A stretch of DNA of 64,000 nucleotides, from positions 25,643 through 89,642 of the IMG/VR virus record IMGVR_UViG_3300042935_001795, one strand, 5' to 3'. Below are positions 399-63,873 of the stretch, in pieces. The number at the start of each line of letters is the position of its first letter. Position 1 is the stretch's first letter. The stretch is from a virus. The position numbers and the translations under genes were made by a program. A model generated the notes under the pieces. It did not search any database. It had not been told where the DNA came from and worked only from the letters and a program-made list of their open reading frames with translations.

Positions 399-1829
399 TT
401 AAACAACTGGAGCGTATCTCTCACTCAAAATTGTTTTATCCATGATTTGTTGTGGAGATTCTATATCTCCTCCAAGTAAACTTGTCATAATTGCTGGAGA
501 GAATCCTGAAACAAGTGCGGTTCCTTTAGCATCAAATGCAACTGGTACTCCTCCGTTTCGGGATTGAATATTCCAGTAAACAATTTGAGGTACTTTGTAA
601 CCTGCATCGGCATACATTTTCTCAATTAACTGCTGAGCAGTAGGTGTCCATTTTCCACCTTCGTTTCTCCAACCTCCACCTCCGGTTGCCGAGTTAAATT
701 CCATATCCGATAGGATTAAGATTTTGTTTGGCATTTTGTCTTGAGACAATTTGTGCTTAGTGGCCTGATCTAGGATCAGTTTGAATGTAGCCTCAAGATC
801 TGTTGACATTCCCCAATCAGAGTCTGACATCTGTGTGTAGCGATCATTCAGTGAGCCACTTAATACTTGCAACTGTGGTTTACTTGAGAATGTTATAAAT
901 GCATCTTTGAAAGGACCCACATTTCTTTCAGAAATATAGAGACCTAATGAGATTGCAACATTCATACAAGTTACAGTTTTACTTCCACCAGCTGGACTTG
1001 ACATAGAACCTGAAACGTCTACTACTGGTAAAATCATATCGTTTGCACCTTCCAAATAGTTTGGCAAGGCTTTCCATTGTTCGTTTGCTACGGTTGCATT
1101 TCCACGCTCTAACGATGTAATAATATCGTAAGGATAAACTGCACCTGCATTAATCTTAGCCTCACCTTTTACAAGGGAAGCAATATACGCTGAATAACTT
1201 TCGTATGCATTTTTACCAAAGGCTTTTTGGTAACGTGCAGAAGCTACTGATGGTAATTTACCGAAGTCAATAGAATTCCAGTCTTTAGCACACATTTTAG
1301 TTTCAACAACACTTGTTAAACCTACAAGAGATTTTCTGTATTGTTTTGGGGACATTCCAGTAAATTTACGTAACTTTTCGGCTACTGCTCCTTTACGTGG
1401 CATCCATTTAGCACATAAACCATTTTCGTTGATTAATGCATCTGAAATTAGGGTGAATGCCTCCTTTTCAAGATATGTTCCTGCTAAGGCTAGTAAGTCG
1501 TCCCAGCGTCCGTACTCTGAAATTAAGTGTAAGTTTGGTCTAAGTACCAAATCGTGGTTTTCTGCCAAGTAGACTAAAATGTCTTTGAAAACTTGACGTT
1601 CTCCAGCTCCACCTCGAACATCTCTAGCCCAAAAAAGAAGTTTCATAGCACGCTTTGGGTCTTCATTAAATGCTTTAGAGAAAGTAGTAATCAAACGTTG
1701 TTTGTCCTGTCCTCTCATAGCTCCAATGTTAAAGAAAAGGTCAACACATGCATTCAATGATGTCGAATTTGTCGCCATTCCATTTTCAGTTACCATGTCC
1801 TCTTGTCTTAATGCGTCTATAAATTCCAT
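399..1829 (-). CDS. DUF2828 protein: TROVE/Ro60-like helical domain plus vWA domain
   Basis: 476 residues. The first half carries the DUF2828 signature (R-D-V-R-G-G-x-G-E-R around residues 69-78, followed by a helical-repeat pattern with a G-R-W-D-D-L motif). The second half is a von Willebrand A domain with an intact metal site, D-V-S-G-S at 271-275, and a later S-D-M-E strand. DUF2828 proteins resemble the Ro60/Rsr architecture of HEAT-like ring plus vWA and are known from plants, fungi, giant viruses and phages. RNA binding is therefore a family-based inference. The N-terminus (M-E-F-I-D-A-L-R-Q-E) is only vaguely like the capsid-targeting tags, so packaging is not claimed. It is the last recognisable protein gene of the window, and the candidate structured RNA lies directly downstream. 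Confidence 0.8.
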   Translation of the reverse strand: MEFIDALRQEDMVTENGMATNSTSLNACVDLFFNIGAMRGQDKQRLITTFSKAFNEDPKRAMKLLFWARDVRGGAGERQVFKDILVYLAENHDLVLRPNLHLISEYGRWDDLLALAGTYLEKEAFTLISDALINENGLCAKWMPRKGAVAEKLRKFTGMSPKQYRKSLVGLTSVVETKMCAKDWNSIDFGKLPSVASARYQKAFGKNAYESYSAYIASLVKGEAKINAGAVYPYDIITSLERGNATVANEQWKALPNYLEGANDMILPVVDVSGSMSSPAGGSKTVTCMNVAISLGLYISERNVGPFKDAFITFSSKPQLQVLSGSLNDRYTQMSDSDWGMSTDLEATFKLILDQATKHKLSQDKMPNKILILSDMEFNSATGGGGWRNEGGKWTPTAQQLIEKMYADAGYKVPQIVYWNIQSRNGGVPVAFDAKGTALVSGFSPAIMTSLLGGDIESPQQIMDKTILSERYAPVV

Positions 1830-2788: not shown

Positions 2789-3925
2789 TTAATAATCAAA
2801 TGGCGGAGTTCCATAATCTGTGTGTTTAACAGCGTACCATACATTTTTAGGTCCTAAAATATACCACCAACCTCTATCTGAATCAACTAGTTGGTATTCT
2901 CCTTTTAGTGAAACGTTTTGAAATTTACTAAAGTTTTTTGTTACTGGAGTACCATCTGGCCATAGTTTAGAACACGTTTGCGCTTTAAATGTTTTTCCAT
3001 CAAATTGTCCTAGAAATATTTTTGCAGAATACCCTTCTTCTTGTTCATCTTTTGCAAATGTATTAATAGAATTTTCTGTGTCTTCATTTAATGATTCTAG
3101 TATTTTGCCATTCTTTTCAATTTCATGAATTGTTTCAGGCATAGAAGTGATTCTTACTCCAATATCGCCGGACCACTTGTAATTGCGATTTTGTTTTAAT
3201 GAAGTATGATTTGCAAATATTCCACCTGGTAAATTTGTAATGATAGTTCCTTTTGGCAAGATAACATTAACATAATCTCCTATTTTTGCATTTTTAACAT
3301 CTTTCTTTAATTCATACTTTTTATTATCTAATAATGTAATAGTTCTACCGCTATTTCCAGAAATTGTTTGTAGACTTGCTTCATTTATAAACTCTTCAAA
3401 AGATTTAAACTTTTTTAAGAACTCTTTGCGTCTCTTTTTTTCTTCTTCCTCTTCCTCTTTTGCATCTCCTCTTCCTTTTGGAACGTCTCCAGAACCTACT
3501 CCAGTTGGTGAAGGTAAGGCAGTTGCTCCCATTCCTCCAATACTATCAGGAGAAACCATTTCTTCAAGTTCATGATAACCATCATTTGCCTGCTTAATAT
3601 AATTATAAGACTGTGAAATATGGTCCTGTAGCCATCCTGGTAGGTCCTTTTCCTCTCTTCCAATTTTTTGAAGTAGCTCTCCAACTGCTTTTGAAATTGC
3701 GTTAAGTTGACTCATTGCCATTCCAACCTCATGGTCTTCACCTTCTTTAACATAGTCAGGTAGTCCTTCATGTTTTGTACTTGCAAAATCTTTCAATTGC
3801 TGAAGTGTCATAGAATCTGCAAGGTCTTTAACCTCTTGGCTTGCATCTTTAGGGTCCATATCTCCTTTTTTAAGAGAGTATGCCATACCCATTAATTGTT
3901 GTTGTGCTTTACTTGTACTTGGCAT
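2789..3925 (-). CDS. DUF3008-like protein with an internal capsid-targeting motif
   Basis: 378 residues. Residues 1-60 resemble the DUF3008 family (M-P-x-x-S-K-x-Q-Q-x-x-M-G-M-A near the start, L-K-D-F-A-S-T-K-H-x-G-L-P at 44-56). A charged, Glu/Lys-rich linker (155-172) follows. At 171-182 comes K-K-F-K-S-F-E-E-F-I-N-E followed by Ala, which is the same peptide that opens many other genes in this window. A second protease-like site, E-S-L-N-E, lies at 277-281. I infer that the protein is cut into pieces in the head and that the middle peptide acts as tag or cleavage site. The C-terminal domain is beta-rich and unassigned. A GATATATAA box lies 18 bases upstream of the ATG. Confidence 0.65.
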   Translation of the reverse strand: MPSTSKAQQQLMGMAYSLKKGDMDPKDASQEVKDLADSMTLQQLKDFASTKHEGLPDYVKEGEDHEVGMAMSQLNAISKAVGELLQKIGREEKDLPGWLQDHISQSYNYIKQANDGYHELEEMVSPDSIGGMGATALPSPTGVGSGDVPKGRGDAKEEEEEEKKRRKEFLKKFKSFEEFINEASLQTISGNSGRTITLLDNKKYELKKDVKNAKIGDYVNVILPKGTIITNLPGGIFANHTSLKQNRNYKWSGDIGVRITSMPETIHEIEKNGKILESLNEDTENSINTFAKDEQEEGYSAKIFLGQFDGKTFKAQTCSKLWPDGTPVTKNFSKFQNVSLKGEYQLVDSDRGWWYILGPKNVWYAVKHTDYGTPPFDY

Positions 3926-5540: not shown

Positions 5541-5873
5541 TTATGCTAAATATTGTTTTTCATCACCTAACTTTGAATTTTTTAGGGCTGATGAAAACAT
5601 GTCAGTATATTTTAATCCATCTAAATCTTTCATTCTTTTGGCAATAAACTTTGCAACGTCTGCTCCGTCTTTTGCAACGTTCTTTCCTAAGTAGTGAATT
5701 GCATTTCTTAAATCTGTTAAATCTTTAATAGGAAACCTACCACCTGGCATCGCTTCTCCATTTTTTTCTAATTCTTTTCTCTCTTGTGAAGTATACTTTT
5801 TTTCGTATAATTCATAAGATTCATGAATCATTGATTCATTTAAAAATTCTTCGTATAGTTTAATATGTTTCAT
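5541..5873 (-). CDS. Predicted internal head protein with N-terminal capsid-targeting tag
   Basis: 110 residues. It opens with M-K-H-I-K-L-Y-E-E-F-L-N-E, which resembles the T4 internal-protein capsid-targeting sequence ending at a gp21-type (L/I-x-E) cleavage site. The mature part contains E-A-M-P-G-G-R-F-P-I-K-D-L-x-D-L-R-N-A-I followed by a K-F-I-A-K-R motif, a small helical module often seen in phage proteins (DUF6582-like). The first 38 bases of the gene are identical to those of the next upstream gene at 6411. Ejection with the DNA is inferred from the tag. Confidence 0.65.
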   Translation of the reverse strand: MKHIKLYEEFLNESMIHESYELYEKKYTSQERKELEKNGEAMPGGRFPIKDLTDLRNAIHYLGKNVAKDGADVAKFIAKRMKDLDGLKYTDMFSSALKNSKLGDEKQYLA

Positions 5874-5874
5874 C

Positions 5875-6411
5875 TTACTTTTGGTCTATTTGCATGATTT
5901 CAGAACCTCTGATTTCAACATTATTTTCTCCAATTTGGGCATCATATCCACCATAAATATCTTCTCCGCCAGCAATTGCAGTGTTTAACATACCTCCTAA
6001 TTTTTTAGAATATTTACTACCATCAGCATCATCCATAAAACCGACGTTAATTACAAAGTCTCCAGGAATTCTAATATAAAGTGGACCTCCATCTCTATTT
6101 AATCCATTAATAGTATCTGGCTCCCATGAAAGGTTTAATCCTTGAACATGAACATAAACAACTTGGTCCATGTCTCTTACTGCCTTTTCAACTTCAGCTA
6201 GAATCATTTTTTGGGCATCTTTTCCAAAATCCCACCATGCTCCATTAACTTCTTCTAAAGTATCTGCCGCGTCTCCTTCAAAAGAGACTCTTTCAATTTC
6301 TTTTTTAAAAGCCTGCATAACTTTACCAATAATACCTTTAGAGGCATACGGCCCAGTCATTCTGTAGACTTTCTCATTTAAAAATTCTTCGTATAGTTTA
6401 ATATGTTTCAT
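5875..6411 (-). CDS. Predicted internal head protein with N-terminal capsid-targeting tag
   Basis: 178 residues starting M-K-H-I-K-L-Y-E-E-F-L-N-E. The remainder has no family that I recognise. It has an amphipathic first half and a beta-rich second half with many Gly and Asp. It is one base away from the downstream gene and in the same run of tagged genes. A GATATACAA variant box lies 1-2 bases upstream of the ATG, too close for a normal leader. Confidence 0.6.
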   Translation of the reverse strand: MKHIKLYEEFLNEKVYRMTGPYASKGIIGKVMQAFKKEIERVSFEGDAADTLEEVNGAWWDFGKDAQKMILAEVEKAVRDMDQVVYVHVQGLNLSWEPDTINGLNRDGGPLYIRIPGDFVINVGFMDDADGSKYSKKLGGMLNTAIAGGEDIYGGYDAQIGENNVEIRGSEIMQIDQK

Positions 6412-6424
6412 ATTGTATATCTTA

Positions 6425-6934
6425 TTATGAATAGGCTTCGATGTCCCATTGAATTCTATCTAATGGTTTTTCGCCGTACGCTACATTTCTCTTAACCCAA
6501 TCAATAAGACCTGGTTCAAACTTGGCATTTTGGGCCATATCATATGCGTGGTCTGCACCACCATCTCCTGACATGTTTTTAATCCATTTGTCATATTCCT
6601 TTTGGTTCCATTTTTTAGGCTTAGAATGTGGTCCATTACCTGCTGTAGAAAATGCGGCCATCGATGAACTTGGAATAAATACATCAGTAAGACCTGCGGT
6701 ACCTGACTTACCATTGTCGTATCCAATCTTTTTTCTGAATTTAACTAGGGCATAATCAGCAGCCTCGATTTGACTGTTGCGTGACATTGCTCCAGTTTTT
6801 TTACCATAGGCTCTTTTAAGTTCCTCTTGTTTATCAGGGTCAGTTTCAAAGTGAATTTCTTTAATGCTATCAGTTCCCCAATCCTCATTTAAGGATTCAT
6901 TAACAAAACTTTCAAATGTAGGTATGTGTTTCAT
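6425..6934 (-). CDS. Predicted internal head protein with N-terminal tag and two cleavage-like sites
   Basis: 169 residues starting M-K-H-I-P-T-F-E-S-F-V-N-E followed at once by S-L-N-E-D, giving two successive protease-like sites (V-N-E and L-N-E). The mature part is about 150 residues, basic and charged, with no recognised domain. It lies 2 bases upstream-to-stop from the neighbouring tagged gene, in the same operon. Confidence 0.6.
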   Translation of the reverse strand: MKHIPTFESFVNESLNEDWGTDSIKEIHFETDPDKQEELKRAYGKKTGAMSRNSQIEAADYALVKFRKKIGYDNGKSGTAGLTDVFIPSSSMAAFSTAGNGPHSKPKKWNQKEYDKWIKNMSGDGGADHAYDMAQNAKFEPGLIDWVKRNVAYGEKPLDRIQWDIEAYS

Positions 6935-6936
6935 AA

Positions 6937-7281
6937 TTATCTTTGTTTTCCAATTGTTACTTGTCCCATTTGAATAGCCTTTTCGATTTGATCGTATAAC
7001 TCTTGGGCATTTTTAATATCTTTTGTGGGAATCTCAAATTCTCCTTTTTTGCAAAGAAGAACGTAATACTCACCATTGTTAGTTATATTAAAATACTCAT
7101 CTCCTGTCATAAAAGGAATTTTCTTTCCTCTAACAGAACCAGACCCTATTTCAATTGTTCCTTTAGAAGAATTTAATAGTTTAGCCACCTTGTCAAGTAT
7201 TTTATCATCCGTTGTTTTAACTCCCTCCGGATATTCTATCTTTTCATTAACAAACTGTTCGAATAGTTTAATATGTTTCAT
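6937..7281 (-). CDS. Predicted internal head protein with N-terminal capsid-targeting tag
   Basis: 114 residues starting M-K-H-I-K-L-F-E-Q-F-V-N-E. The mature part is about 100 residues, mixed alpha/beta, with a glycine-serine stretch (G-S-G-S-V-R-G) and no recognised family. It is separated by one base from the large polyprotein-like gene upstream. Confidence 0.6.
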   Translation of the reverse strand: MKHIKLFEQFVNEKIEYPEGVKTTDDKILDKVAKLLNSSKGTIEIGSGSVRGKKIPFMTGDEYFNITNNGEYYVLLCKKGEFEIPTKDIKNAQELYDQIEKAIQMGQVTIGKQR

Positions 7282-7282
7282 C

Positions 7283-9577
7283 TTACCAAGCGTAATTTTT
7301 AGCTTCTACTTTCTTAACGTAATCAACGATTGTTTTAGAACTTTCTTTTAATCTACCTTCATAGAATTTTCCGCTATAACCGGTTGCAACTTCTTTTTCA
7401 GCATCAACAACGTATCCAACGTATCTGTTATATTCATCTAAGATATTTCTCATTAAATTAGAAGCATCGCTCATTTTGATTTCTCTACCTTTAGGGTCTA
7501 GTCCAACAATAAGTTCTCCATATCTTCCTTTTTCACCTTTAGATAGTGCATCTTTAATTTGAGTAGCAAGAGTATCAATAGCTCCTAATACAACTGAATC
7601 CATCGGCATTTCAGATGCTTTTTGCGCTAAGATTTGGTTATAACGGGCTTTGTTTTCTGCTTTAAAGTCTTTGTCACTTTGAAAAGCAGTAGCTCCTCTT
7701 TTATCATTAGCTCTTTGTAACTGAAGTGATGTTGTAGAATATCTTGCTTTAAGAACATCTAAGTCAATAACGTAAACGGTATCTGCTAGTTCAGCTACTT
7801 TAGTAAGGGAGGTAATTCCTGAACCATCGTATCTTTTAGAGTCTCTTTTATCAAAACCTGCTGCATCTTCTCTAGTTTTTGTAATTTTTAAAGTTTCTCC
7901 TTTTGTATAGCTATTGTATGCAGTTGAGTACCATTCATTACTTCCGTTAGTTATTGCTAATAAGGTATTTGATTGGATAATTCCATTATTATAAGTACTT
8001 GGAATACTACCTTCGATGTATGGATTTTCTTTTTGGTTATTTACTATATAGAAGTAAACACCATTAGCTCTTTTTTCTTTACGAGCAGTTTGAGGGTCCA
8101 TTTCAATAATGTCATAATCTTCAATTTTGTCAATTGCTAATTTTGAAAAGTTATAGAATGCTCCTGCAAGGTCTTTAGTACCTGCGCTTCCTACTGAAAA
8201 AAGGTTAGCCAGTTTAGCACTTTTAAATGCCTCATTTAATGTACTTTCATTTAGTTTGTTTGCAACGAAATCCGCGAAAGATTCGTAAATAAATTTTGTT
8301 GTCATATCATTTATATTTTTATTTTCGTCTAAGTCAATTACCCAAGCATATTCAACATACTTGATAGCATCTTCTGGATTCACATCCCATTTAAGTGCCG
8401 CATCTAATACGATTTTTCTTGTGATTTTTTGGTTTGGGTATTTTGCAATTTCTTTATCAAATCCTCCAGGAACCCAAATCTTTGGGGCCTTTGTAGTGGC
8501 TTCTGAAACCATTACATTTTTAAGGATTCTTGAACCTGTTTTTGATAGTGATATTCCATCTTCAGATACGTTAAAACACTGAGCGTTTCTTCTCAACCAT
8601 CTTTTAGAATCTGTGGTCATTTCTTTAAGAATATTATTAAAATCTTCCTGTGAAACTTTACCATCTTTAATAGCCTCTAACATTCTGTTACGAACTTTAG
8701 CAGCTTTACCTACAGTAACTGCCGGATTTTTATCAGTATATTGTCTTTTGATTGTAACGTTTCTTTCATTAACTACTGATTCGTTTAAACCAAACTCTCT
8801 GATATCGTTTTGTCCATTGTCAAATGATTTTTGAATAGAGTCTAGTGCTTCTTTTCTATCGCTTGATTTTTCAAAACCAATTTCACTATCAGTAAATGCT
8901 CTTGAATATTTTTTCCATGAGTCTTTTGATAAATCAGCAACTTTTCTTAAGTTGATTGCTGTAGATTCTATACGATATCTTCCAATTGTTCCGGCTGGGT
9001 AATTGTTAGTTGATAAACCTAAAAATAATTTAGCCTCATCTAAAGAAGATTCTTTAATAATTTTATCATCTTTATGGAAAATGTATTCCATTTTCTTACC
9101 AGTTTTCTTGAATTCACCAGTATAAGAAACTTCTCCATCTTTATTTTTAAAAACTTTATCAACTACAAATTCTCCATCAGATGAAGCGTATGGAATTACA
9201 ATACTTCCTTTTTTAACGGTAGCCTCATTTGTAACTGATTCATTCGCCATCATCTTTTTAAAACCTTTTGCAATAGTTTTAATATCGTCTTTAATTTTAC
9301 CTAAAACTGGATTTTCGCGAATGGCCATATTTACAACATTACCATTTTTGTAAATGTTGTATGAACCACCATCAAATTCTTCGTCATTATAGTCTAGGTC
9401 AAAACCATCTTCCTCTAATGTTCTTTTATTTACTGCCCATTTTCCATTTTCAGGGTCTACACTAGCCGCAGCATCTGCAAATTTTTGAGCAATTTTAAGT
9501 GTCTCATCTTTAGTAAGTCCAGCAGGTCCACCATAAGTTGAGGTACTACCTTCGTTTAGGAATTCATTAAAATTCAT
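7283..9577 (-). CDS. Tagged internal-protein polyprotein with multiple prohead-protease-like sites
   Basis: 764 residues. It starts M-N-F-N-E-F-L-N-E followed by Gly, a short form of the capsid-targeting tag. Internal sites of the same type occur after E118 (E-S-V-T-N-E then A), E181 (E-S-S-L-D-E then A), E271 (E-S-V-V-N-E then R), E359 (M-V-S-E then A) and E449 (E-S-T-L-N-E then A). A second tag-like stretch, Y-E-S-F-A-D-F-V, precedes the E449 site. Cutting at all sites would give five short segments and a C-terminal domain of about 315 residues. That domain is alpha/beta, contains Y-F-Y-I-V-N-N, and matches no family that I can name. T4 Alt is a precedent for a large packaged protein, but no ADP-ribosyltransferase motif was seen. 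Confidence 0.65.
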   Translation of the reverse strand: MNFNEFLNEGSTSTYGGPAGLTKDETLKIAQKFADAAASVDPENGKWAVNKRTLEEDGFDLDYNDEEFDGGSYNIYKNGNVVNMAIRENPVLGKIKDDIKTIAKGFKKMMANESVTNEATVKKGSIVIPYASSDGEFVVDKVFKNKDGEVSYTGEFKKTGKKMEYIFHKDDKIIKESSLDEAKLFLGLSTNNYPAGTIGRYRIESTAINLRKVADLSKDSWKKYSRAFTDSEIGFEKSSDRKEALDSIQKSFDNGQNDIREFGLNESVVNERNVTIKRQYTDKNPAVTVGKAAKVRNRMLEAIKDGKVSQEDFNNILKEMTTDSKRWLRRNAQCFNVSEDGISLSKTGSRILKNVMVSEATTKAPKIWVPGGFDKEIAKYPNQKITRKIVLDAALKWDVNPEDAIKYVEYAWVIDLDENKNINDMTTKFIYESFADFVANKLNESTLNEAFKSAKLANLFSVGSAGTKDLAGAFYNFSKLAIDKIEDYDIIEMDPQTARKEKRANGVYFYIVNNQKENPYIEGSIPSTYNNGIIQSNTLLAITNGSNEWYSTAYNSYTKGETLKITKTREDAAGFDKRDSKRYDGSGITSLTKVAELADTVYVIDLDVLKARYSTTSLQLQRANDKRGATAFQSDKDFKAENKARYNQILAQKASEMPMDSVVLGAIDTLATQIKDALSKGEKGRYGELIVGLDPKGREIKMSDASNLMRNILDEYNRYVGYVVDAEKEVATGYSGKFYEGRLKESSKTIVDYVKKVEAKNYAW

Positions 9578-9601
9578 AGGATTTCTATATTTATTTATGT
9601 T

Positions 9602-9610
9602 TTATATATC
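9602..9610 (-). promoter_or_regulatory. Late-promoter-like box GATATATAA overlapping a stop codon
   Basis: Exact nonamer, 24 bases upstream of the ATG at 9577. Its last three bases are the TAA of the upstream gene, which ends Asp-Ile-stop. Confidence 0.5.
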
Positions 9611-11473
9611 TTTGTTAATAAATTGTTCGAATGTCATAATTTCATTGGAAGCCGATTCAGCTACTACTCCCATTGCATCTTCAATTTTAGATTTTAGTTC
9701 ATTGTACATTCTATGAATTGCGTTTGGAGTTAAATTGTTAAATAGTTTTTCGTCTCCATCTAATAGCGCATTTCTAACTGCAGTAGCCGAAATATCATCG
9801 TCAGTTCTTGGAATTTCAAAAAGTCCAAAATCAGCTCTACAGTTTAATTGGTCTCTATATGCATCATTATTAACTTGATAACCATAACTTGTCATTCTAT
9901 CACTTCCCGTTCCCCAAAGTACTGGCTCATATTTAGGTCTCATTTCATTAAACATAATATCGATACCTCCGGTTGGAACTACAAATATTTCTTTAAGGAA
10001 TGGATATTGTTTTTTAACATTGTTGAACATATCAATTTGAGTCTTTTCATCGTATGGTCTGCTAAATTCATCACCTTTCTTTTTGGTTTTTGATTTAACA
10101 AGGAATACAACTACAGGGAATCCATTCTCTTTATGTATAGTTTCTAAAACTTTTGCATGTCCCAGTGTAAATGGCTGAAATCGTCCAACAAACATGTTTA
10201 CTGGTTGTTTTCCTTGTTCAACATGAGTAAGTTTAAGTGCCTCGTTTAAGTCAACTGAGGATTTAATTCTATTACGTAACATGTAATTTTGGAAATCATA
10301 GATTGCATTTTCATCAGTATTTTCAACAAATATCTTTTCATTAATTTTTTCGATGATTTCGTTTAAACGTTCCATAGTATCTGTGTCTATTAAATCTGAA
10401 GTTTTGGTTCGCTTCTTTCTAAAAGAACCTAAAATCATTTTAAAAAGTTCTGCTAAAATATCATTTGAAACATATTTTAGGGTTTTTTCATCAGTAATAT
10501 ATTTGGCGTTTAATTTAAAAGATTCTGCTGATGAAAATTCAGCACTTTCAAAATTAACTCCAATATATTTTGAAGAGTTTTTGTCGACATATTCATTAAA
10601 TATAATCGACATTATTTCAAGATATCGATAATCTGCTCTTTCGTCTTCGAGTTGAACTTCATCGATTTTAAATTGAGTTATAAATTCTAAAAAGTCAGTG
10701 ACTGCAATTTGATACATGTGACTTGAAGAGTTATCGATTGTATTTTTTCGAATAAAGTCCTCTAATTTAAAAGATTTAATAGATTTTTCATCAATAAAAT
10801 TAACAACCAATCCATCAAATTCGTCTTCAATTCCAGAATTTAGGGCAGTTTCAAATGCACTATTGTTAAAAAGTTTAACTATTTTACTAGTAAAACTTGT
10901 TTTGTCTTTTGTCTCCTCTAAATAATCAAATGTTTCGCTAAATTCTCTATCGCTCATTCCAAGTAATTCTAGTAACTCATCCCGTTGTAATTGAGATAAA
11001 TAGCCATCAAAAATTACACTTGGCCGTTGAACATCAAGAATTTTTGCCCATTTATTTAAGATAACCGGGTCATTTATAGTTTTCTTAACCTTATCGCCTT
11101 CTCCTATTTGTTGAATGTGAGTTAGGATTAAGTTATTTTTTGGAGTTTTTTGGTATTTAATTTTAGATACATTAACTTCTGGTAGGTATTCAAAACCAAA
11201 TCTCCAATCAAGTGGCATTTGGTTTTTAGTAGAGCTTGGTAAACTTTGCATATAGTTGATTGCAATCTCATATAGAGAAATAATAGTTCGGTCAACTAAA
11301 TTTAATTTGTCTGAATTTGAAGATTTAAAATATTCAAATCCATCAAGATTTCTTTTAACAAGAAATGTAGGTGCAGAAACTTTCTCAGTTACTAACACCC
11401 TATTTTTTAACATTTCAATAAAGGTTTCTCTATTGGTTTCGTTAAAATACTCTCTTAATTTTTGTAATGCCAT
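9602..11473 (-). CDS. Ligase-superfamily domain fused to an NMN-adenylyltransferase-like domain, with C-terminal capsid tag
   Basis: 623 residues. Residues 25-240 look like an RNA/DNA-ligase-type nucleotidyltransferase: V-T-E-K31-V-S-A for motif I, W-R-F-G-F-E-Y-L (90-97), D-E-F-D-G-L-V-V-N-F (217-226) for motif IV, and S-F-K-L-E-D for motif V. After a helical linker comes a nucleotidylyltransferase domain with G-R-F-Q-P-F-T-L-G-H (430-439) and I-S-A-T-A-V-R, the HxGH-class and ISxTxxR motifs of NadM/NMNAT enzymes. Protease-like sites sit at L-N-E411 then A, exactly between the two domains, and at S-A-S-N-E611 before a final 12-residue I-M-T-F-E-Q-F-I-N-K-D-I that copies the capsid tag at the C-terminus. 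I infer a packaged enzyme cut into two. It overlaps the next upstream ligase-like gene by 1-3 bases. Confidence 0.65.
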   Translation of the reverse strand: MALQKLREYFNETNRETFIEMLKNRVLVTEKVSAPTFLVKRNLDGFEYFKSSNSDKLNLVDRTIISLYEIAINYMQSLPSSTKNQMPLDWRFGFEYLPEVNVSKIKYQKTPKNNLILTHIQQIGEGDKVKKTINDPVILNKWAKILDVQRPSVIFDGYLSQLQRDELLELLGMSDREFSETFDYLEETKDKTSFTSKIVKLFNNSAFETALNSGIEDEFDGLVVNFIDEKSIKSFKLEDFIRKNTIDNSSSHMYQIAVTDFLEFITQFKIDEVQLEDERADYRYLEIMSIIFNEYVDKNSSKYIGVNFESAEFSSAESFKLNAKYITDEKTLKYVSNDILAELFKMILGSFRKKRTKTSDLIDTDTMERLNEIIEKINEKIFVENTDENAIYDFQNYMLRNRIKSSVDLNEALKLTHVEQGKQPVNMFVGRFQPFTLGHAKVLETIHKENGFPVVVFLVKSKTKKKGDEFSRPYDEKTQIDMFNNVKKQYPFLKEIFVVPTGGIDIMFNEMRPKYEPVLWGTGSDRMTSYGYQVNNDAYRDQLNCRADFGLFEIPRTDDDISATAVRNALLDGDEKLFNNLTPNAIHRMYNELKSKIEDAMGVVAESASNEIMTFEQFINKDI

Positions 11474-12762
11474 TATCTTCCGTATTTTATAATTCCCATT
11501 AATTGATTAATTGCAGCGAATGTTCCTGTTAATTTGTACATGTGTCCTTTGTATGAAAATACGATACCTTCAGTCGGTATAATAGATTGGATTCCTCCAA
11601 TTCTCTCTAATCTGTCAAGTTCTTTTGCAACCTTTTCGATTTGAGTAAGGTCTCCATTTAGTTTAATTTTGTCGGCTTCGGTTCGGATTTCGTTATGTAG
11701 TCTTTGCATTTCTTTTTCAGGAGAAGCAGCAACAAAATTACTTGCATTCTTTAAGATAACACTTCCCAATTCTAAGAAAAGGTCTTCAAATGGTCGAATG
11801 TTTTCTTTAAATTTTACTTTAAAGTCCTCTTTGTCGAACTTTTTAACGGCTTCGGCTTGTTCCTTTGTTAACTCCTTGTCTAAAGAACGCATGTTTAATG
11901 TTTTCTTGTCGTCATATGCCCATCTTAACAATAAACCTTCTTTGATATTCTGGGGTAGGTCACCAAATATTGTTTCAATTTGCTCTCTCCACCACATTTC
12001 ATGGTAGCGAGCAACTGAGTCAGCATCGGTTAATTTATAACGATTTTTAAGAGTATCTAGTTTTCCTAAGAATTTAGACTGATTCTCTTCAAAATTTATA
12101 TCTTTTTGTAGTTTAATAACTTGTGGAGGGATTATTGTAAATGTTTTTCCAATGTCAGCATTTAAAGATTTAAGAACTCCGGTAACACTTTTTGCCGCAC
12201 TATTGTCGTCTCCAACTATATTTCCTGCGCCATCAGTCTTCTTGATACCATGAAATTGAATTACGTCAACGTCATAGTGAATAACGTTAGGGTTAGCAGA
12301 ATATATCAACTCCATGTTCATGAAGTTCAGACCATTCTGGAACACTTCCTCTTGTGTTTTAGCCGGTAACTTTATAAGCAGAGTTGCTAAATCAGTGGCT
12401 GCAAATTGGAAAGTATCTTGTACTAATTTACTTGCATGTCCTTCAAATTTATTTTGAAAATCCTTAAGGCTCATTGGAGTTTGCAACTCAGTTTTATTTC
12501 TGGCAAATTTAACTTCACCATTTTGAATAGTTGCAAAAACGTTTTGACCGTCAGTTTTTTCAGTAGGCTCTTCTTCGAAGTTTAATTCTCCTTGAAGTCC
12601 ACCAATAATCATATTCTTGAAGTCTCCGAATGTTAGGTCATTGTTATCGAATGGATGAGACATGTGTCCGGCAGCTCCACCTTCTAATAGTAACCGTTCA
12701 TTCAATTTAACTTCGTACCTTTCGGTTATGAACCGGTTAAAATTAAGGATTCTTTTTTTCAT
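11473..12762 (-). CDS. Tagged ligase-superfamily nucleotidyltransferase
   Basis: 429 residues. The N-terminus I-L-N-F-N-R-F-I-T-E14 then V-K-L-N-E22 then L-L-L-E27-G-G carries up to three protease-like sites and the F-x-x-F-I-x-E capsid tag. The enzyme core has E-K69-T-D-G-Q-N-V (motif I, KxDG), a M-N-M-E-L-I-Y strand, and near the C-terminus E-G-I-V-F-S-Y-K-G then Y-K-L-T-G (motifs IV and V). The spacing between motifs I and IV is long, so a helical insertion lies between. ATP-dependent adenylation of a nucleic acid or other substrate is inferred from the superfamily. It is adjacent to the ligase-NMNAT fusion, suggesting that the two act together after injection. Confidence 0.65.
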   Translation of the reverse strand: MKKRILNFNRFITERYEVKLNERLLLEGGAAGHMSHPFDNNDLTFGDFKNMIIGGLQGELNFEEEPTEKTDGQNVFATIQNGEVKFARNKTELQTPMSLKDFQNKFEGHASKLVQDTFQFAATDLATLLIKLPAKTQEEVFQNGLNFMNMELIYSANPNVIHYDVDVIQFHGIKKTDGAGNIVGDDNSAAKSVTGVLKSLNADIGKTFTIIPPQVIKLQKDINFEENQSKFLGKLDTLKNRYKLTDADSVARYHEMWWREQIETIFGDLPQNIKEGLLLRWAYDDKKTLNMRSLDKELTKEQAEAVKKFDKEDFKVKFKENIRPFEDLFLELGSVILKNASNFVAASPEKEMQRLHNEIRTEADKIKLNGDLTQIEKVAKELDRLERIGGIQSIIPTEGIVFSYKGHMYKLTGTFAAINQLMGIIKYGR

Positions 12763-12763
12763 A

Positions 12764-13240
12764 TTATAAGCTTTCTAATTTTTTACTTAAATCAAGTATG
12801 TTTGCATTAATTCTTATTTTTTGATTATCAAGGTCAAGAGCTGACATTTTAAGAGTTGCTATTTGGGCTTGAATTGCAGATTTTGGGTCATCTACTTTTT
12901 GGTTTAAGTCATTAACTTTATTTCTAAGTTCTTTTCTTTTTAAGAGTAGATCGGATGCTTTTAATGAAAGATCAGCTCTTGCATCAGAGTAATTAGATTC
13001 TGCAACACCATTATTTCCTTCCATTCCATCATATACAGAGTTTAAGTTTTCTAAAGAAACTGTTAATTGAGAAAACATCCAAGACTCTAGTTGTTCTCCT
13101 TCTGTCATTCTCTGTTTAATCATGCCTGCATATTCTGCAATTTTTTGAAGTTGACCCATAGTCATATCATTTAATTCGGCTAGGGTATCTCGACCCTCTG
13201 CTTCATTTAAGAACTCTTCAAATAGGTTAATATGTTTCAT
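12764..13240 (-). CDS. Predicted internal head protein, coiled-coil, with N-terminal tag
   Basis: 158 residues from the chosen start M-K-H-I-N-L-F-E-E-F-L-N-E followed by Ala. An in-frame ATG 39 bases further upstream would add an untypical hydrophobic leader lying over a terminator, so I use the tag start. The mature part is almost entirely helical with heptad character (residues 75-158), similar in size to T4 prohead core and internal proteins. ATTATATTTACA lies 2 bases upstream of the ATG. Confidence 0.65.
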   Translation of the reverse strand: MKHINLFEEFLNEAEGRDTLAELNDMTMGQLQKIAEYAGMIKQRMTEGEQLESWMFSQLTVSLENLNSVYDGMEGNNGVAESNYSDARADLSLKASDLLLKRKELRNKVNDLNQKVDDPKSAIQAQIATLKMSALDLDNQKIRINANILDLSKKLESL

Positions 13241-13242
13241 AG

Positions 13243-13254
13243 TGTAAATATAAT
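13243..13254 (-). promoter_or_regulatory. Post-terminator motif ATTATATTTACA
   Basis: Exact copy of the 12-mer, directly after the terminator at 13258-13287 and 2 bases before the ATG at 13240. If it is a promoter, the mRNA would be leaderless or start inside the gene. Confidence 0.35.
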
Positions 13255-13257
13255 AAA

Positions 13258-13287
13258 AATACCTGACATGGTAAAACATCAGGTATT
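13258..13287 (-). terminator. Rho-independent terminator
   Basis: Nine-base stem (13258-13266 with 13279-13287, arm AATACCTGA) and a 12-base loop, followed on the minus strand by a T-rich stretch. It ends the large polyprotein transcript. Confidence 0.7.
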
Positions 13288-13304
13288 ATTTATTTAGATT
13301 ATTT

Positions 13305-15893
13305 TTAAGATTCCTGAGCGATCATTGCATCAATAATATCGAATGAGATATATCCTTTTGCTTTAACAAATTCTTTTGCAAGTTTAAGGACTTTCTTTTC
13401 TCCAGCCGGTGTTACCTCATTATCTGGACCATCTTCATTGTTATCATTCCAATCTTCAACGGCAGCTTGTACGTCTTGTTGGATTTGCATACCAGTTGGG
13501 TTTTTCGTTTTTTGAGCTCCTTCTTGGTAATCTTCCCAGTAGTTCGCATCAAATCCTTCAGTAACTACTGATTCTCCTAATGAGCTTGTTAACGTTCCAA
13601 CACATGCTCCGTAATCATCACCACATTTTTTAAGAATTCCATCAACTACTTCAGTAGCTTTAGCCTCATCAAAGTCATCTCCAAATGCTTTTTTCAAAAC
13701 AGCCATTGCGTATTCTTTAAATTCATCATCAGAACTAACTTCAGCTTCATTAACTATTGATTCAAAAGTAGCTGTAATTCCTTTAATTTTATATTCCTTT
13801 GATAATGCTCCTAATTTATTATAAAGTTCATCTAGTTCATATTCAACTAAATGCTTATAGCCTTTTTTAATGTTAATGTCTGCATTTCCAGATCTTGCCA
13901 TATAATCATCTTTACCTTCAGCAACTACAGATTCTTTAGCAGATCCAGCGGCTTTAGCTCTTTTTGCTTGTAGTTTTTTAAGTTTTTCTGTTTCTTCTTG
14001 GCGAGCTTTAAAGGCTTTTAATTTTTTTAATTGTTCAGCTCTACTTGTTTTTTCTGCGCTTGGATCTTGACCTTCAGTTAAAGATTCTTGAACATTGTTT
14101 TCCCACCATGCTTTAAGTGCTTCAAAATCTTTACGACCCATGTTAGAAAGAGTATACTCTACTATGTCATTATCGTAATCATCTGCTTCATCTTTGAAAC
14201 CTCCTGGAGTATCGATGTAATCTTTACCCATGATTCTTTTAATTCTAACCTCTGGCATACCATCAATTTCCTCTAAGAACTCTTCAAAGTCTTCAGTTGA
14301 TTTGAATTTTTCAGCTTCATTAACTACTGATTCAATTAATTCCATATTGTATGCATTTGAAATATCTGTTTTAATTTCTCCAGTTTCTTTTGAATGCAAT
14401 TTCATAGTTTTACCATCAGGATTTAATTTAATGAATGTAACTTCACCATAGTCTGATGTGTATTTGTGGTTTGGCTTCAAGTCTTTTGCTTTACCTTCGT
14501 AAACAGTTCCAGCAACTTCTTCAGGTTTGTTAAATTTCTTAACAGATTTTTTAACAGTATTTAATTGTCTAACAACAGAATCAATAACTCCAGTATCAAT
14601 ATCGTTTCCAGCAGCAGCGCTGCTATATAAGTTAGTTAAATTTTGAGATGCTAAATATAATTCATTTCCAATAACATCTTTTGGTAATCGGTTGAATGCT
14701 TCAGAAACTACTAATTCTAAATCTTTATCTTTATCGGCGATTGTTGCATCAAGTTCAGCTTCTAGGGCTTTCTTCTGAGCAGTCATCTCTTTTAATTTTC
14801 CAAGTAACATTTCTTTAGCAGGACCTTCAGCGGCTTTCCAATTTTGTGCGGTAGCCTGCATTGTAGTTGTCAGTTTAGACCAGTCATATTGAATTTTAGC
14901 AATTGTACGAGCCTCATTAACCAAAGATTCATTTTTCTTTTGGCTTGCTTTTAAATCTGCAAGTTCTCCTTTTAATTTAGGGTCTAATTGTCTTTCAATT
15001 CCCCAGTTAAAACTTGCATTTATCAACATATTCAATGGTAAGTTTTCATTTTTCTTACCAAACGCAGATGTACTAATCCAGTTTAAATAATGGTCAGCTA
15101 ATTCTTTTGATAATTTGATACCTTCTGCTTCTGAAGAATCTCCATCAACAATTCCTTTAAGTAATTTTTTAGCCATTCCATGCTTACCTTCATTTAAAGA
15201 TTCTTGTATGAAACTAATATCTTTAAGATAAAACTCATGGTCTGAACCATCCTGAGTATATCCTATAAAAGAATCACCTTTGTCACCTTTTAATTCTGCA
15301 GGGTTAACTGAGTACCAATCGTTTCCAACAAAAACTTCTACAGGTTTTCCACCAATTTGAGTATAAAGGTCATTTGCAGTTTTACCAGTAAATTTACTTC
15401 TTTTAGCCTCTTCAATTTCGTAAGTTTCACCATCAACTTCAAATTCATCTTCGTCATCTTCTTTTGCTTTTTTAACAGCAGCTCCAAACGCATTACCTTC
15501 TTTAAGACCTGTGTCTTTTTTAATGGTTACTTTATATTTTTTACCATTAAATTCAAACTCAGATTTTCCATCTTGTTTAGCTTTACCGGCTGCAAATATA
15601 AATGCATTTCCCTCTTCTAGTTTTTTAGGTTCTCCTAATTTATTAAGTTCGTCTTCAATATCTTCTGCTTCATCTTCTGAAACGTTTCCAAACATTTTGT
15701 TAATTAAGGCTTGTTTTTTCTCTTCATCTAATTCAGATAGAGATGTTAAACCCATTTCATCAAGGATTGCTCCAATTTTACCAACAGTTTCCTGTCTTTT
15801 TGCATTGTTTGTTTCTCTTAGTTTCATCGTAGCTTCCTGATTCTTAACTTCAGTAAAACTCTTAAATGTAGAGATTTTGTTAACTTGTGCCAT
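13305..15893 (-). CDS. Large internal-protein polyprotein with repeated prohead-protease-like sites
   Basis: 862 residues, highly charged and largely helical. The N-terminus I-S-T-F-K-S-F-T-E is a tag-like peptide. Seven strong sites of the form E-S-x-(x)-x-E before Ala or Gly end at E235, E327, E526, E607, E659, E716 and E779 (for example E-S-V-V-N-E then A, E-S-L-T-E then G). Weaker sites end at E94, E132, E162 and E398. A 35-40 residue unit beginning E-G-N-A-F is repeated in tandem at 94-131 and 132-165. Full cleavage would give roughly eight to twelve small proteins. T4 gp21 cleaves core and internal proteins at similar (L/I)-x-E sites, so an internal-head polyprotein is the best reading; a scaffold/core protein is an alternative. 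Confidence 0.65.
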   Translation of the reverse strand: MAQVNKISTFKSFTEVKNQEATMKLRETNNAKRQETVGKIGAILDEMGLTSLSELDEEKKQALINKMFGNVSEDEAEDIEDELNKLGEPKKLEEGNAFIFAAGKAKQDGKSEFEFNGKKYKVTIKKDTGLKEGNAFGAAVKKAKEDDEDEFEVDGETYEIEEAKRSKFTGKTANDLYTQIGGKPVEVFVGNDWYSVNPAELKGDKGDSFIGYTQDGSDHEFYLKDISFIQESLNEGKHGMAKKLLKGIVDGDSSEAEGIKLSKELADHYLNWISTSAFGKKNENLPLNMLINASFNWGIERQLDPKLKGELADLKASQKKNESLVNEARTIAKIQYDWSKLTTTMQATAQNWKAAEGPAKEMLLGKLKEMTAQKKALEAELDATIADKDKDLELVVSEAFNRLPKDVIGNELYLASQNLTNLYSSAAAGNDIDTGVIDSVVRQLNTVKKSVKKFNKPEEVAGTVYEGKAKDLKPNHKYTSDYGEVTFIKLNPDGKTMKLHSKETGEIKTDISNAYNMELIESVVNEAEKFKSTEDFEEFLEEIDGMPEVRIKRIMGKDYIDTPGGFKDEADDYDNDIVEYTLSNMGRKDFEALKAWWENNVQESLTEGQDPSAEKTSRAEQLKKLKAFKARQEETEKLKKLQAKRAKAAGSAKESVVAEGKDDYMARSGNADINIKKGYKHLVEYELDELYNKLGALSKEYKIKGITATFESIVNEAEVSSDDEFKEYAMAVLKKAFGDDFDEAKATEVVDGILKKCGDDYGACVGTLTSSLGESVVTEGFDANYWEDYQEGAQKTKNPTGMQIQQDVQAAVEDWNDNNEDGPDNEVTPAGEKKVLKLAKEFVKAKGYISFDIIDAMIAQES

Positions 15894-21105: not shown

Positions 21106-21474
21106 TTAGATTTTACTACCAAGAGAAGAACCAAGAGCGGCTCCTACTAGTCTTGAGGTTAACATATCATACATTATACCACTTTGGATTCCTAAGATAT
21201 TGGCAATAGTTTTACCAACAGTTTTACCAAGAGCGAAACCTGCAAGTCCACCAAAGATACTACCTAAAATACCTTCATTAGTAATCTCTTCATTGAATGC
21301 TTGGATATTATAAGTTCCATCTACGTTTTTATACGTCTTTGAAAATTGCTCTAGGGCTGAGTCAACTTTAGCTTCAAGTTCTTCGGTCCATTCGGTTTGA
21401 AGGGATTCGTTTAAGACCTGTAGTTCTGTCTCCGTTATGTCTTGTTCTGCTATGTAATCTAAAAATGTTTTCAT
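21106..21474 (-). CDS. Tagged glycine-zipper protein, predicted internal head protein
   Basis: 122 residues starting M-K-T-F-L-D-Y-I-A-E, strikingly like the T4 IPI/IPIII capsid-targeting sequence (M-K-T-Y-Q-E-F-I-A-E). A second protease-like site is I-T-N-E then G-I-L (about residue 68). After it, the C-terminus is a glycine-zipper segment (G-x3-G-x3-G pattern, residues 69-122) able to insert into or cross a membrane. I infer a packaged peptide that could help DNA or protein cross the inner membrane. Confidence 0.6.
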   Translation of the reverse strand: MKTFLDYIAEQDITETELQVLNESLQTEWTEELEAKVDSALEQFSKTYKNVDGTYNIQAFNEEITNEGILGSIFGGLAGFALGKTVGKTIANILGIQSGIMYDMLTSRLVGAALGSSLGSKI

Positions 21475-27362: not shown

Positions 27363-27410
27363 ACCTATCTATATTTAGATTATATATTCTAATTTTTAGA
27401 GAGTATACTA

Positions 27411-28046: not shown

Positions 28047-28079
28047 TTTTATTATTTTTATTTTTATTTTTATTTTTTA

Positions 28080-29465: not shown

Positions 29466-29491
29466 CTAGACTATATATATTATTTTAATTA

Positions 29492-49575: not shown

Positions 49576-50385
49576 CTATACCATAGAATCCCGTTTTGCC
49601 TGTAGTTTTTTAAGTTCTTTTTGCCAATTAACTACATACTTTAATTTCCATTCAATATTCATATGCTTCCATGATGCTATTTTACGAGCAATTCCATTTT
49701 CACGTTCTGAATTATAGAATGCCTCATTGTCATTATAATTTTTAGCGGCTTCTCTTTTTACAATGTCAGACCATGTTGGCCATTCATACCAAGATTCTTT
49801 TGGATCGTCTTTAATGGTTTGAATGATTTCAGCATCTGTTAATTTAGAATTTGTATTGGCATCTTCAGATGTTTTTTTAATTCTTATTTCATAATCTCTG
49901 ATTTCTTTGCTAATTTTTTCAATTTTAGACATTTTCTTAATCTTCTCAGAATATTCTTTAGCAATTTCGGTAGCTCCAGTTTTTGGAAGGTTTGTTTTAA
50001 CAATATATCTATAATGAAGTCTTTGGATATTATGTCCTCCTGCGTAAATTGCTTCAGTTGCAAAACTATAAGTAGTTTCTCCTCTTTGGATTTGAGAAGC
50101 TATCTCAATATTTCCTTTAGCGCTCTTACGAACATTCATTGATAACAGTGAATCGGTTGGTAGTGTATACATTTCAATAGATTTAACCATATCATAGGTT
50201 AAATTGATTCTAGCATACTCTCTGTCATATTTGGTAAACTCCTGTTTAAAAGTCTCTACAAACCATTTTTCGGTTGCAGCTAGCATCTCAACGATGGTAG
50301 GCTCCAACGAATCTAAAATAACGTTAACAATATTGTCTTGATTTGACTCATTTAAGAATTGTCCGTATGTTTTAAATTTGTTCAT
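49576..50385 (-). CDS. Predicted internal head protein with N-terminal capsid-targeting tag
   Basis: 269 residues starting M-N-K-F-K-T-Y-G-Q-F-L-N-E before Ser, close to the T4 tag. The mature part is about 255 residues: an alpha/beta front and a long Lys/Glu-rich helical middle (145-180), then W-Y-E-W-P-T-W. No family recognised. It stops at TAG. A GATATATAA box lies only 3 bases before the ATG, so its mRNA may be leaderless or the real promoter lies further up (ATTATATTTACA at 50412-50423). Confidence 0.6.
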   Translation of the reverse strand: MNKFKTYGQFLNESNQDNIVNVILDSLEPTIVEMLAATEKWFVETFKQEFTKYDREYARINLTYDMVKSIEMYTLPTDSLLSMNVRKSAKGNIEIASQIQRGETTYSFATEAIYAGGHNIQRLHYRYIVKTNLPKTGATEIAKEYSEKIKKMSKIEKISKEIRDYEIRIKKTSEDANTNSKLTDAEIIQTIKDDPKESWYEWPTWSDIVKREAAKNYNDNEAFYNSERENGIARKIASWKHMNIEWKLKYVVNWQKELKKLQAKRDSMV

Positions 50386-63390: not shown

Positions 63391-63873
63391 TTATTTTATA
63401 TCTTCAGCGTCGGTAGCAGCAGTAGCTTCTTTACTTTCATTAATTTTCTTACTGAAAGCCTCGCTCATTTTGTTTAAGCATGCTTCATATGCTTCAGACT
63501 CCATGTTTTCTTTCATTTCTTTCACACAATTAGCCGCCATACCTGCAACGAGTGATGCATTTTCAGCCATATATGTTTCTATAGTATGCTCATCATGCGC
63601 ATCTTCTTCCCATGTTTTAGCCTCCGCAATAACTGCTTCATAACATTCTTTTAATAAGTCCGCAACTGGTTTGGTCTCTTCTTTGATTTTTTCAGCATCA
63701 TCTCCGATAACTGCCTCTCCAGCCTCGTCTACTCCTTGAACCTCTTCTGCTTCCTCTTCTGCTTCCTCTTCAGATTTAACTTCAGGTGTTCCTTTAGCAA
63801 CAATGTCTGCTTCTATTTCCTCGGCTCTGTCCATTTCTGAAACAAATTCCTCGAATTTTTTAATACTTGCCAT
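63391..63873 (-). CDS. Acidic predicted head-core/internal protein with N-terminal tag
   Basis: 160 residues starting M-A-S-I-K-K-F-E-E-F-V-S-E, a variant of the capsid tag ending in V-S-E. It is very acidic, with a Glu-rich tract at 34-46 and an Ala/Glu/Lys-rich helical end. T4 prohead core proteins gp67 and gp68 are small and charged in the same way, and a core or internal protein is inferred. A GATATATAA box lies 26 bases upstream. Confidence 0.6.
   Translation of the reverse strand: MASIKKFEEFVSEMDRAEEIEADIVAKGTPEVKSEEEAEEEAEEVQGVDEAGEAVIGDDAEKIKEETKPVADLLKECYEAVIAEAKTWEEDAHDEHTIETYMAENASLVAGMAANCVKEMKENMESEAYEACLNKMSEAFSKKINESKEATAATDAEDIK

Follow-up and report, generated by a model that had tools for sequence, protein, structure and literature searches.

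Probable two-half capsid-targeting tags and ESxxNE-linked polyproteins as predicted head cargo of a large T4-like phage

Why should so many genes with unrelated bodies open with the same short peptide? The question is raised by a 64,000-nucleotide stretch of viral DNA (the window), which lies within a fragment, 89.6 kb long, from the genome of a large T4-like phage. The T4 tag and its modularity have long been known, and the T4 internal proteins IPI, IPII, and IPIII reportedly carry a capsid-targeting sequence (Mullaney and Black 1996; Repoila 1994). The sequence-only reading of the window had proposed the same role for the peptide found here. We consider it very likely that this peptide acts as a capsid-targeting propeptide of the T4 type, composed of two halves, by which proteins would be loaded into the head, cut by a gp21-type protease, and injected, the long cargoes being polyproteins with ESxxNE motifs.

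Tagged genes and conservation of the tag

Ten genes of the window open with a tag of the form M-K-H-I-K-L-[FY]-E-x-F-[VIL]-N-E, and one weak, one internal, and one C-terminal copy are also present. All copies listed by the sequence-only reading were found where it had placed them, although the M-(K-H-I) opening ascribed to them was too general, as only five start with MKH. All features of the window given below with coordinates lie on the minus strand. Tagged proteins of 110 aa (5541..5873; tag MKHIKLYEEFLNE at 5835-5873), 178 aa (5875..6411; tag MKHIKLYEEFLNE at 6373-6411), 169 aa (6425..6934; tag MKHIPTFESFVNE at 6896-6934, then SLNE), and 114 aa (6937..7281; tag MKHIKLFEQFVNE at 7243-7281) were identified; the first has a tagged homologue that is 94% identical (L094), and the body of the second represents the largest tagged body family, with 15 members. 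In the ORF listed at 12764..13279, the tag (MKHINLFEEFLNE, 13202-13240) sits at residue 14, and the true start is therefore probably the ATG at 13240; shorter tagged homologues exist. A 122-aa protein with a glycine-rich C-terminus (21106..21474) opens with the T4-like tag MKTFLDYIAE, a 269-aa protein (49576..50385) with MNKFKTYGQFLNE, and an acidic 160-aa protein (63391..63873) with MASIKKFEEFVSE. Beyond the window, the same contig holds three more tagged genes (MKHVKLYEEFVNE, MIPIKLFEEFVYE, and MKYIKLYEDFINE).

When genes of at least 60 aa in the 89.6-kb record were counted, 11 carried the core motif N-terminally, whereas its internal rate predicts 0.26 and shuffled sequences gave 0.12 (maximum 2). 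The corresponding numbers were 22 against 1.0 and 0.44 in a 234-kb relative, and 23 against 0.9 and 0.40 in a 256-kb relative. Two relatives have 25–27 tagged genes per genome, and 367 distinct ORFs on related contigs open with the tag, on approximately 150 body families, a frequency that does not equal prevalence because the tag itself was used to fetch the loci. The original observation was thus confirmed, and it had been understated. No exact match to the tag was found in 257 Gb of cellular genomes.

The tag is conserved at the peptide level and not at the DNA level, as MKHIKLFEQFINE occurs 31 times in 27 different encodings; a DNA-level or translation signal was rejected in view of this synonymous diversity. 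One could also suppose that the shared N-terminus marks a single paralogous family with fast-diverging bodies, or such a signal, and has no targeting role. The tagged genes do cluster and recombination can spread tags, but the bodies come from different superfamilies, the peptide is kept through many synonymous encodings, tag-like copies also occur inside proteins and at protein ends, and one body (Tad3) has an untagged homologue, which makes this explanation highly improbable. Among 106 aligned members, selected in part for the cut Glu, the mean column identity was 5% and the cut Glu alone was invariant; some homologues have the targeting half and no Glu.

Head genes in relatives and the predicted route into the head

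Of 15 viral records with the tag, 13 contained a gp21-type (Peptidase_S77) protease, as expected under the capsid-targeting reading, and none was seen in two tag-bearing fragments. All of 10 tag-bearing records had a gp23-type capsid protein. The relatives have a T4-type head, with gp23 capsid, portal, core, and protease genes in the T4 order. The record of the window itself contained no S77 protease; being a fragment without its head genes, the contig does not allow the phage's own protease to be demonstrated. In every relative, the protease domain is followed by RVNE/[AST] (a slash marks the predicted cut), and the scaffold fused to the protease is separated from it by the same motif as that of the predicted cut sites. 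The capsid protein starts with LINE/AE or LLNE/AE in 11 of 11 cases. Thus, this short motif is found again on head proteins. In every resolved relative, the targeting half of the tag opens the gene between portal and protease, the slot of the T4 core proteins gp67/68. Taken together, the N-terminal enrichment, the S77 and gp23 genes of the relatives, and the tagged core protein support the earlier proposal, and capsid targeting in the manner of T4 has good support as a prediction.

The short N-terminal peptide matches the T4 pattern aromatic-x-x-F-aliphatic-x-E. In the T4 IPIII tag, targeting depends mainly on residues 4 and 7 and processing on residues 8 and 10 (PMC9026906), and these correspond to conserved positions of the tag described here. 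A short N-terminal peptide of this pattern on unrelated bodies is common to T4 and the present phages, and relatives of the window also share a gp21-type protease and a T4-type head with T4. We propose that the targeting half (M-K-H-I-K-L-[FY]-E-x-F) would bind the prohead core and take the protein into the assembling head, and that the cutting half ([VIL]-N-E plus a small residue) would then be the target of a gp21-type protease encoded by the phage itself. The freed proteins would remain in the head and enter the host with the DNA, where they may repair RNA, modify the host, or block host defences. Core binding, cleavage, packaging, retention, and injection are steps that we infer from the sequences.

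The tagged proteins might instead be mainly prohead scaffold or core that is destroyed at maturation. The tag is present on both the gp67/68-slot core protein and the acidic 63391 protein, and gp21 degrades T4 core proteins (PMC9026906). The 63391 protein is possibly a prohead-core component, and several of its homologues keep the targeting half and lack the cut Glu. As a general explanation, however, disposable scaffold is quite improbable, since many of the bodies are enzyme- or inhibitor-like, which is hard to reconcile with such a fate, and the repertoires differ between close relatives, as those of effectors would.

Chained modules and separable halves of the tag

Besides the tags, ESxxNE motifs overlooked by the sequence-only reading are repeated within the long proteins. 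A predicted cargo polyprotein of 764 aa (7283..9577) opens with the tag MNFNEFLNE (9551-9577) and contains four predicted cut sites, at the linkers ESVTNE/A (9224..9241), ESSLDE/A (9035..9052), ESVVNE/R (8765..8782), and ESTLNE/A (8231..8248). Its modules match stand-alone tagged proteins (L069 7304-7867, L069 3103-3447, and L003 972-2021). In 19 of 20 homologous contexts, including N-terminal tags, the Glu of ESVVNE/R kept exactly the same register, and where close relatives have gained or lost modules, the change ends at linkers.

A second predicted cargo polyprotein, of 862 aa (13305..15893), has a weak N-terminal tag (MAQVNKISTFKSFTE); the weaker form recognized here earlier, ISTFKSFTE, is indeed weak, and its Glu is not kept in all homologues. 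Seven ES-linkers follow: ESLNE/G (15189..15203), ESLVNE/A (14913..14930), ESVVNE/A (14316..14333), ESLTE/G (14073..14087), ESVVAE/G (13917..13934), ESIVNE/A (13746..13763), and ESVVTE/G (13557..13574). Other polyproteins and stand-alone tagged proteins share modules with this protein, and in L008 and L074 the module after ESVVTE/G has a complete N-terminal tag in front of it. The gene at 2789..3925 encodes a DUF3008 domain (Pfam, E=2.3e-11), then an internal tag (3380-3418) and two modules, with a second linker, ESLNE, at 3083-3097. The internal copy had been noted before and reads FKSFEEFINE (residues 173-182); in L110, L153, and L061, both modules exist as separate proteins with an N-terminal tag. 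When tagged bodies inside polyproteins were examined, 68 of 165 junctions had [LIVM]xE exactly where the cut would be expected, against a null of 2.6%, the junctions not being independent because many derive from related proteins.

Predicted cargo modules thus occur either alone behind a full tag or chained, with an ESxxNE linker in the exact register of the tag, and the putative targeting and cutting halves are separable. The long cargoes would be polyproteins with one targeting half per chain and ESxxNE linkers between modules, cut by the same gp21-type protease. It could be argued that the tags work as in T4 and that ESxxNE is only a flexible linker, the long proteins being packaged and injected uncut. 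Some multidomain proteins are known to be injected without being cut (PMC5512222), and [LI]xE is a loose motif; against this, the linker Glu shares its register with the N-terminal tag of the stand-alone version, module indels stop at linkers, and the motif also separates the protease from the scaffold fused to it. We regard uncut passage as unlikely. On balance, it seems probable that cargo in large T4-like phages follows a two-part grammar, with the targeting half once per chain and the cutting half at each module boundary, so that interchangeable polyproteins would mature in the head into injected effectors, CBASS and Thoeris inhibitors included, which would be ready before phage gene expression.

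The halves also occur in the opposite order. The cytidylyltransferase-like protein of 623 aa at 9602..11473 (CTP_transf_like, Pfam, E=8.6e-07; phrog_3041 cytidyltransferase, PHROGs, E=9.9e-17) has no N-terminal tag and carries a C-terminal targeting peptide. The tag reported at its end is present but lacks the terminal Glu, and a cut-site-like motif lies upstream: the predicted cut motif ESASNE/ (9641-9658) precedes the targeting half IMTFEQFINKDI (9605-9640), so that the order of the putative halves in this C-terminal tag (9605..9658) is mirrored. In this form, the cut site would come first and the targeting half second. A TFxQF-type C-terminus is kept in most homologues. The N-terminus of the protein (REYFNE) was rejected as a tag, its Glu not being conserved.

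Tagged bodies and comparison with other phages

The tagged bodies show resemblances to GNAT, AAA/kinase, 2H phosphoesterase, ligase-like, and Tad3 proteins, and the earlier statement that they are unrelated agrees with the number of body families. A Tad3 homologue is tagged in three phages and untagged in a fourth, which supports the claim that the tag behaves as a plug-in module. Tagged homologues of Acb1 (anti-CBASS) and Tad3 (anti-Thoeris) were found among the cargo in relatives and are suggestive of action inside the host after injection. Inhibitor homologues are thereby placed among the likely injected proteins, and their arrival with the DNA becomes testable.

The protein of 429 aa at 11473..12762, an RNA-ligase-like nucleotidyltransferase, carries the tag MKKRILNFNRFITE (12721-12762) and a second candidate cut, LLLE/GG, at residues 24-27. 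The tag was retained in all 17 aligned homologues, in which the EKTDG and EG motifs are invariant. Its predicted structure gave weak matches to RNA ligases (best E 5.6e-3, low TM), and the label rests mainly on the conserved motifs. PHROGs and Pfam searches of the window proteins gave few matches, leaving most bodies without an assignment; Pfam matches to SseC, Cytochrom_C1, and GeBP were below the cut-off and were disregarded. PADLOC returned marginal matches only. An AlphaFold model of one module, module F (pLDDT 79, pTM 0.53), matched no solved fold, and searching the PDB by sequence with profiles of the ligase and of module F gave nothing meaningful.

What appears to be new is the scale of tagging and its grammar, the exchange of tag and linker. 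Compared with three internal proteins in T4, two relatives have 25–27 tagged genes; the tag has 13 residues instead of 10; chained, internal, and C-terminal forms occur; and the cargo includes anti-CBASS and anti-Thoeris homologues. No published description of tag expansion or linker exchange was found in a search made mostly outside the subscription literature. In the giant phages SPN3US and phiKZ, packaged and ejected head proteins are trimmed after x-x-E by a gp21 relative, as is predicted here, with several cuts within one propeptide (PMC10052503). The motif there is A-x-E and the propeptides are mostly long (111–254 residues), unlike the present tag. No short tag is common to many unrelated cargoes in those phages, and module exchange between tagged and chained forms is not known to be reported for them.

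Polyvalent proteins (PMC5512222; Iyer et al. 2017) combine several domains and, according to predictions, are packaged into the head and then injected; the present polyproteins, for which injection is likewise a prediction, hold several modules per chain. Many polyvalent proteins, though not all, have a metallopeptidase domain of their own, to which their processing is attributed (PMC5512222), whereas the window polyproteins seemingly rely on the head protease; no metallopeptidase Pfam domain was found in the window proteins scanned, including those at 7283, 13305, and 2789. Given the polyprotein form, the head protease may also act as a general cargo processor, which is of relevance for phage heads as protein carriers. 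Most such phage proteins have no assigned function, and the tag would allow the injected proteins of uncultured phages to be listed straight from sequence. The record showed no DNA similarity to named phages. A strict DNA pattern of the tag had no match in KVP40 and Mel-JY01; among cyanophages, it matched twice in P-SSM2 and once in S-SM2.

Distribution and conservation of the tag

The sequence-only reading had reported copies of a peptide tag, M-K-H-I-K-L-[FY]-E-x-F-[VIL]-N-E in its full form, in the window (bases 25643–89642 of a virus record of 89.6 kb), and every one was found: ten N-terminal copies and a weak further one (13305), one internal copy in 2789–3925 (-) and one C-terminal copy in 9602–11473 (-). 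Three additional tagged genes lie in the record outside the window. Among genes of at least 60 aa, the core motif was N-terminal in 11; its frequency in the remainder of these proteins would predict 0.26, and shuffling gave 0.12.

The conserved entity is the tag peptide, not its DNA; MKHIKLFEQFINE had 27 different encodings among 31 occurrences. In ORFs selected by the first six residues only, the following positions were F/Y (7, 99%), E (8, 98%), Q/E/D (9, 91%), F (10, 98%), V/I/L (11, 94%), N (12, 80%), and E (13, 93%). Selection on positions 7–13 gave a tag start of K (93%), H (66%), I/V (90%), K (80%), and L (84%).

An exact degenerate pattern written for the DNA that encodes the tag matched at least 118 stretches of viral contigs and had no match in bacterial or archaeal genomes (257 Gb scanned). 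All loci fetched contained 367 distinct tagged ORFs, of which the 307 no longer than 300 aa grouped into 150 body families by BLAST linkage, counts that reflect diversity and not prevalence, since the loci were picked by the tag itself. Hand counts of clear N-terminal tags came to 27 in a 234-kb relative and to 25 in one of 256 kb. One strict DNA pattern matched three times in T4 (ipII, ipIII, and gene 61.1), twice in P-SSM2, once in S-SM2, 11 times in the 462-kb phage LR756500, 16, 10, 7, and 10 times in four relatives, and not at all in KVP40; the reversed pattern, used as control, gave one match over all genomes scanned. The uncharacterised T4 gp61.1 (NC_000866 18966–19130) begins MKTFKEFIKE, which resembles the capsid-targeting sequence, and is possibly an unrecognised packaged protein.

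Head genes of relatives and the role of the tag

A gp21-type protease (Peptidase_S77) was present in 13 of 15 tag-bearing records; Gp23 capsid protein was present in 10/10. The gene order in relatives was portal, small core protein, protease, and capsid protein. The small core protein occupies the slot of T4 gp67 and gp68, and its N-termini, where resolved (in stretches other than L121), are tags, e.g. MKYVKLFEQFIKE, MKHIKLFEEFVSE, MKIIKTFEDFITE, and MKKLIKTFEQFIFE; two close sequences retain the targeting half with Glu a few residues further on (TFEEFTSSLQE). Protease and scaffold-like region are continuous in one long ORF in the relatives (~580–640 residues or more in loci L121–L132); the T4 counterparts, 21 and 22, are two distinct genes. 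RVNE|[AST] stood immediately behind the protease domain, before the scaffold-like region, in every relative, LINEAE or LLNEAE at the start of 11/11 capsid proteins, and KLYE or NLNE ~40 residues later; we infer that these motifs would be cut sites. A second, short S77-like match (G003:36115–36369, with corresponding G001 and G002 matches) lies in a 132-residue frame and may represent a protease paralogue that has been truncated.

The tag is very probably a capsid-targeting propeptide. In T4, the capsid-targeting sequence is established as modular on diverse internal proteins and is used in engineering (PMC3012670, PMC9026906, PMC5694885), and Ip1–3 block type IV restriction enzymes (PMC12373910). 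In giant phages, related proteases go with the motif A-x-E, and most of the propeptides are long (PMC10052503). Polyvalent proteins are injected and multidomain, and are processed differently (PMC5512222). In the literature searched, of incomplete coverage, no account was found of tagged cargoes numbering in the dozens, of modules that trade places between tagged and chained forms, or of a mirrored C-terminal tag.

Chained modules and their junctions

Long proteins contain bodies otherwise seen as stand-alone tagged proteins. [LIVFM]xE lay within 5 residues of the expected cut in 120 of 142 distinct junction contexts versus 29% of random positions and, with a stricter set and motif, exactly at the expected residue in 68 of 165 junctions versus 2.6%, although homologous proteins contribute and the junctions are not independent. 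The KRQYT module follows N-terminal MNFQDFLNE, YEEFLNE, or TFDEFITE in some phages and in-chain ESVVNE in others, with an identical Glu register in 19/20 contexts; two other modules likewise occurred with full tag and with linker. Close relatives of 7283–9577 have gained, lost, or replaced whole modules of ~60–75 residues, and these changes end at the linkers. Since modules swap tag for linker in register, with linker-bounded gains and losses, internal junctions retain the cutting half only. Such polyproteins are fairly likely to be cut. Some head-core homologues of the acidic tagged protein 63391..63873 (-) have the targeting half only. At the C-terminus of 9602–11473, ESASNE precedes TFEQF, the reverse of the N-terminal order, and most homologues keep this. 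The T4 IPIII tag is split alike, residues 4 and 7 mainly serving targeting and 8 and 10 processing (PMC9026906).

Probable cargo, possible host and other genes

The claim that the tag sits on unrelated bodies, including enzymes, was supported by the body families and by the Pfam and PHROGs domains of 106 representative tagged proteins. Pfam identified Acb1 (2), Tad3 (1), GNAT acetyltransferases, zeta-toxin/AAA kinases, and 2H RNA-ligase-like, HD, ATP-grasp, and cytidylyltransferase domains; PHROGs added RNA ligase and polynucleotide kinase. Enzyme-like tagged cargo is likely to be injected. Three of the four Tad3 homologues in 48 records had the tag and one had none. Acb1-like proteins, which like the Tad3 homologues all came from relatives and not from the window, had both H-x-T motifs and carried the full tag in 8/10 cases and the targeting half only in 2/10. 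Some Acb1 matches scored very close to the curated cut-off, on one side of it or the other, which makes anti-CBASS activity a lead rather than an established result. Two Acb1-like proteins with the targeting half lack the cut Glu (L187 1285–1917 and L178 1420–2091; FEQFVKD, FKGFLKQ); in the T4 tag, Asp at the cut position stops processing and leaves targeting unaffected.

In the window, 9602–11473 is cytidylyltransferase-like, as judged from its sequence. In 11473–12762 (-), the ligase motifs EKTDG and EG were invariant and the model gave weak fold matches to RNA ligases; its first 33 residues, tag included, mostly had very low model confidence, as would be expected of a removable leader.

Ribosomal protein S21 was encoded in 4/7 tag-bearing records, and one described group of Bacteroidetes phages also encodes it (PMC9723584); because of this common gene, a Bacteroidetes host is plausible but unproven. 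By eye, a family-B-like DNA polymerase apparently lies in two ORFs (L001 9808–11004 and L002 3–1220), between which stand ribonucleotide reductase and other genes. Tail-region proteins have long collagen-like GxQG/GFQG repeats (L001 1–3583, window 24954–31108), and the 476-aa protein at window 399–1829 looks, also by eye, like a TROVE/von Willebrand type RNA-binding protein.
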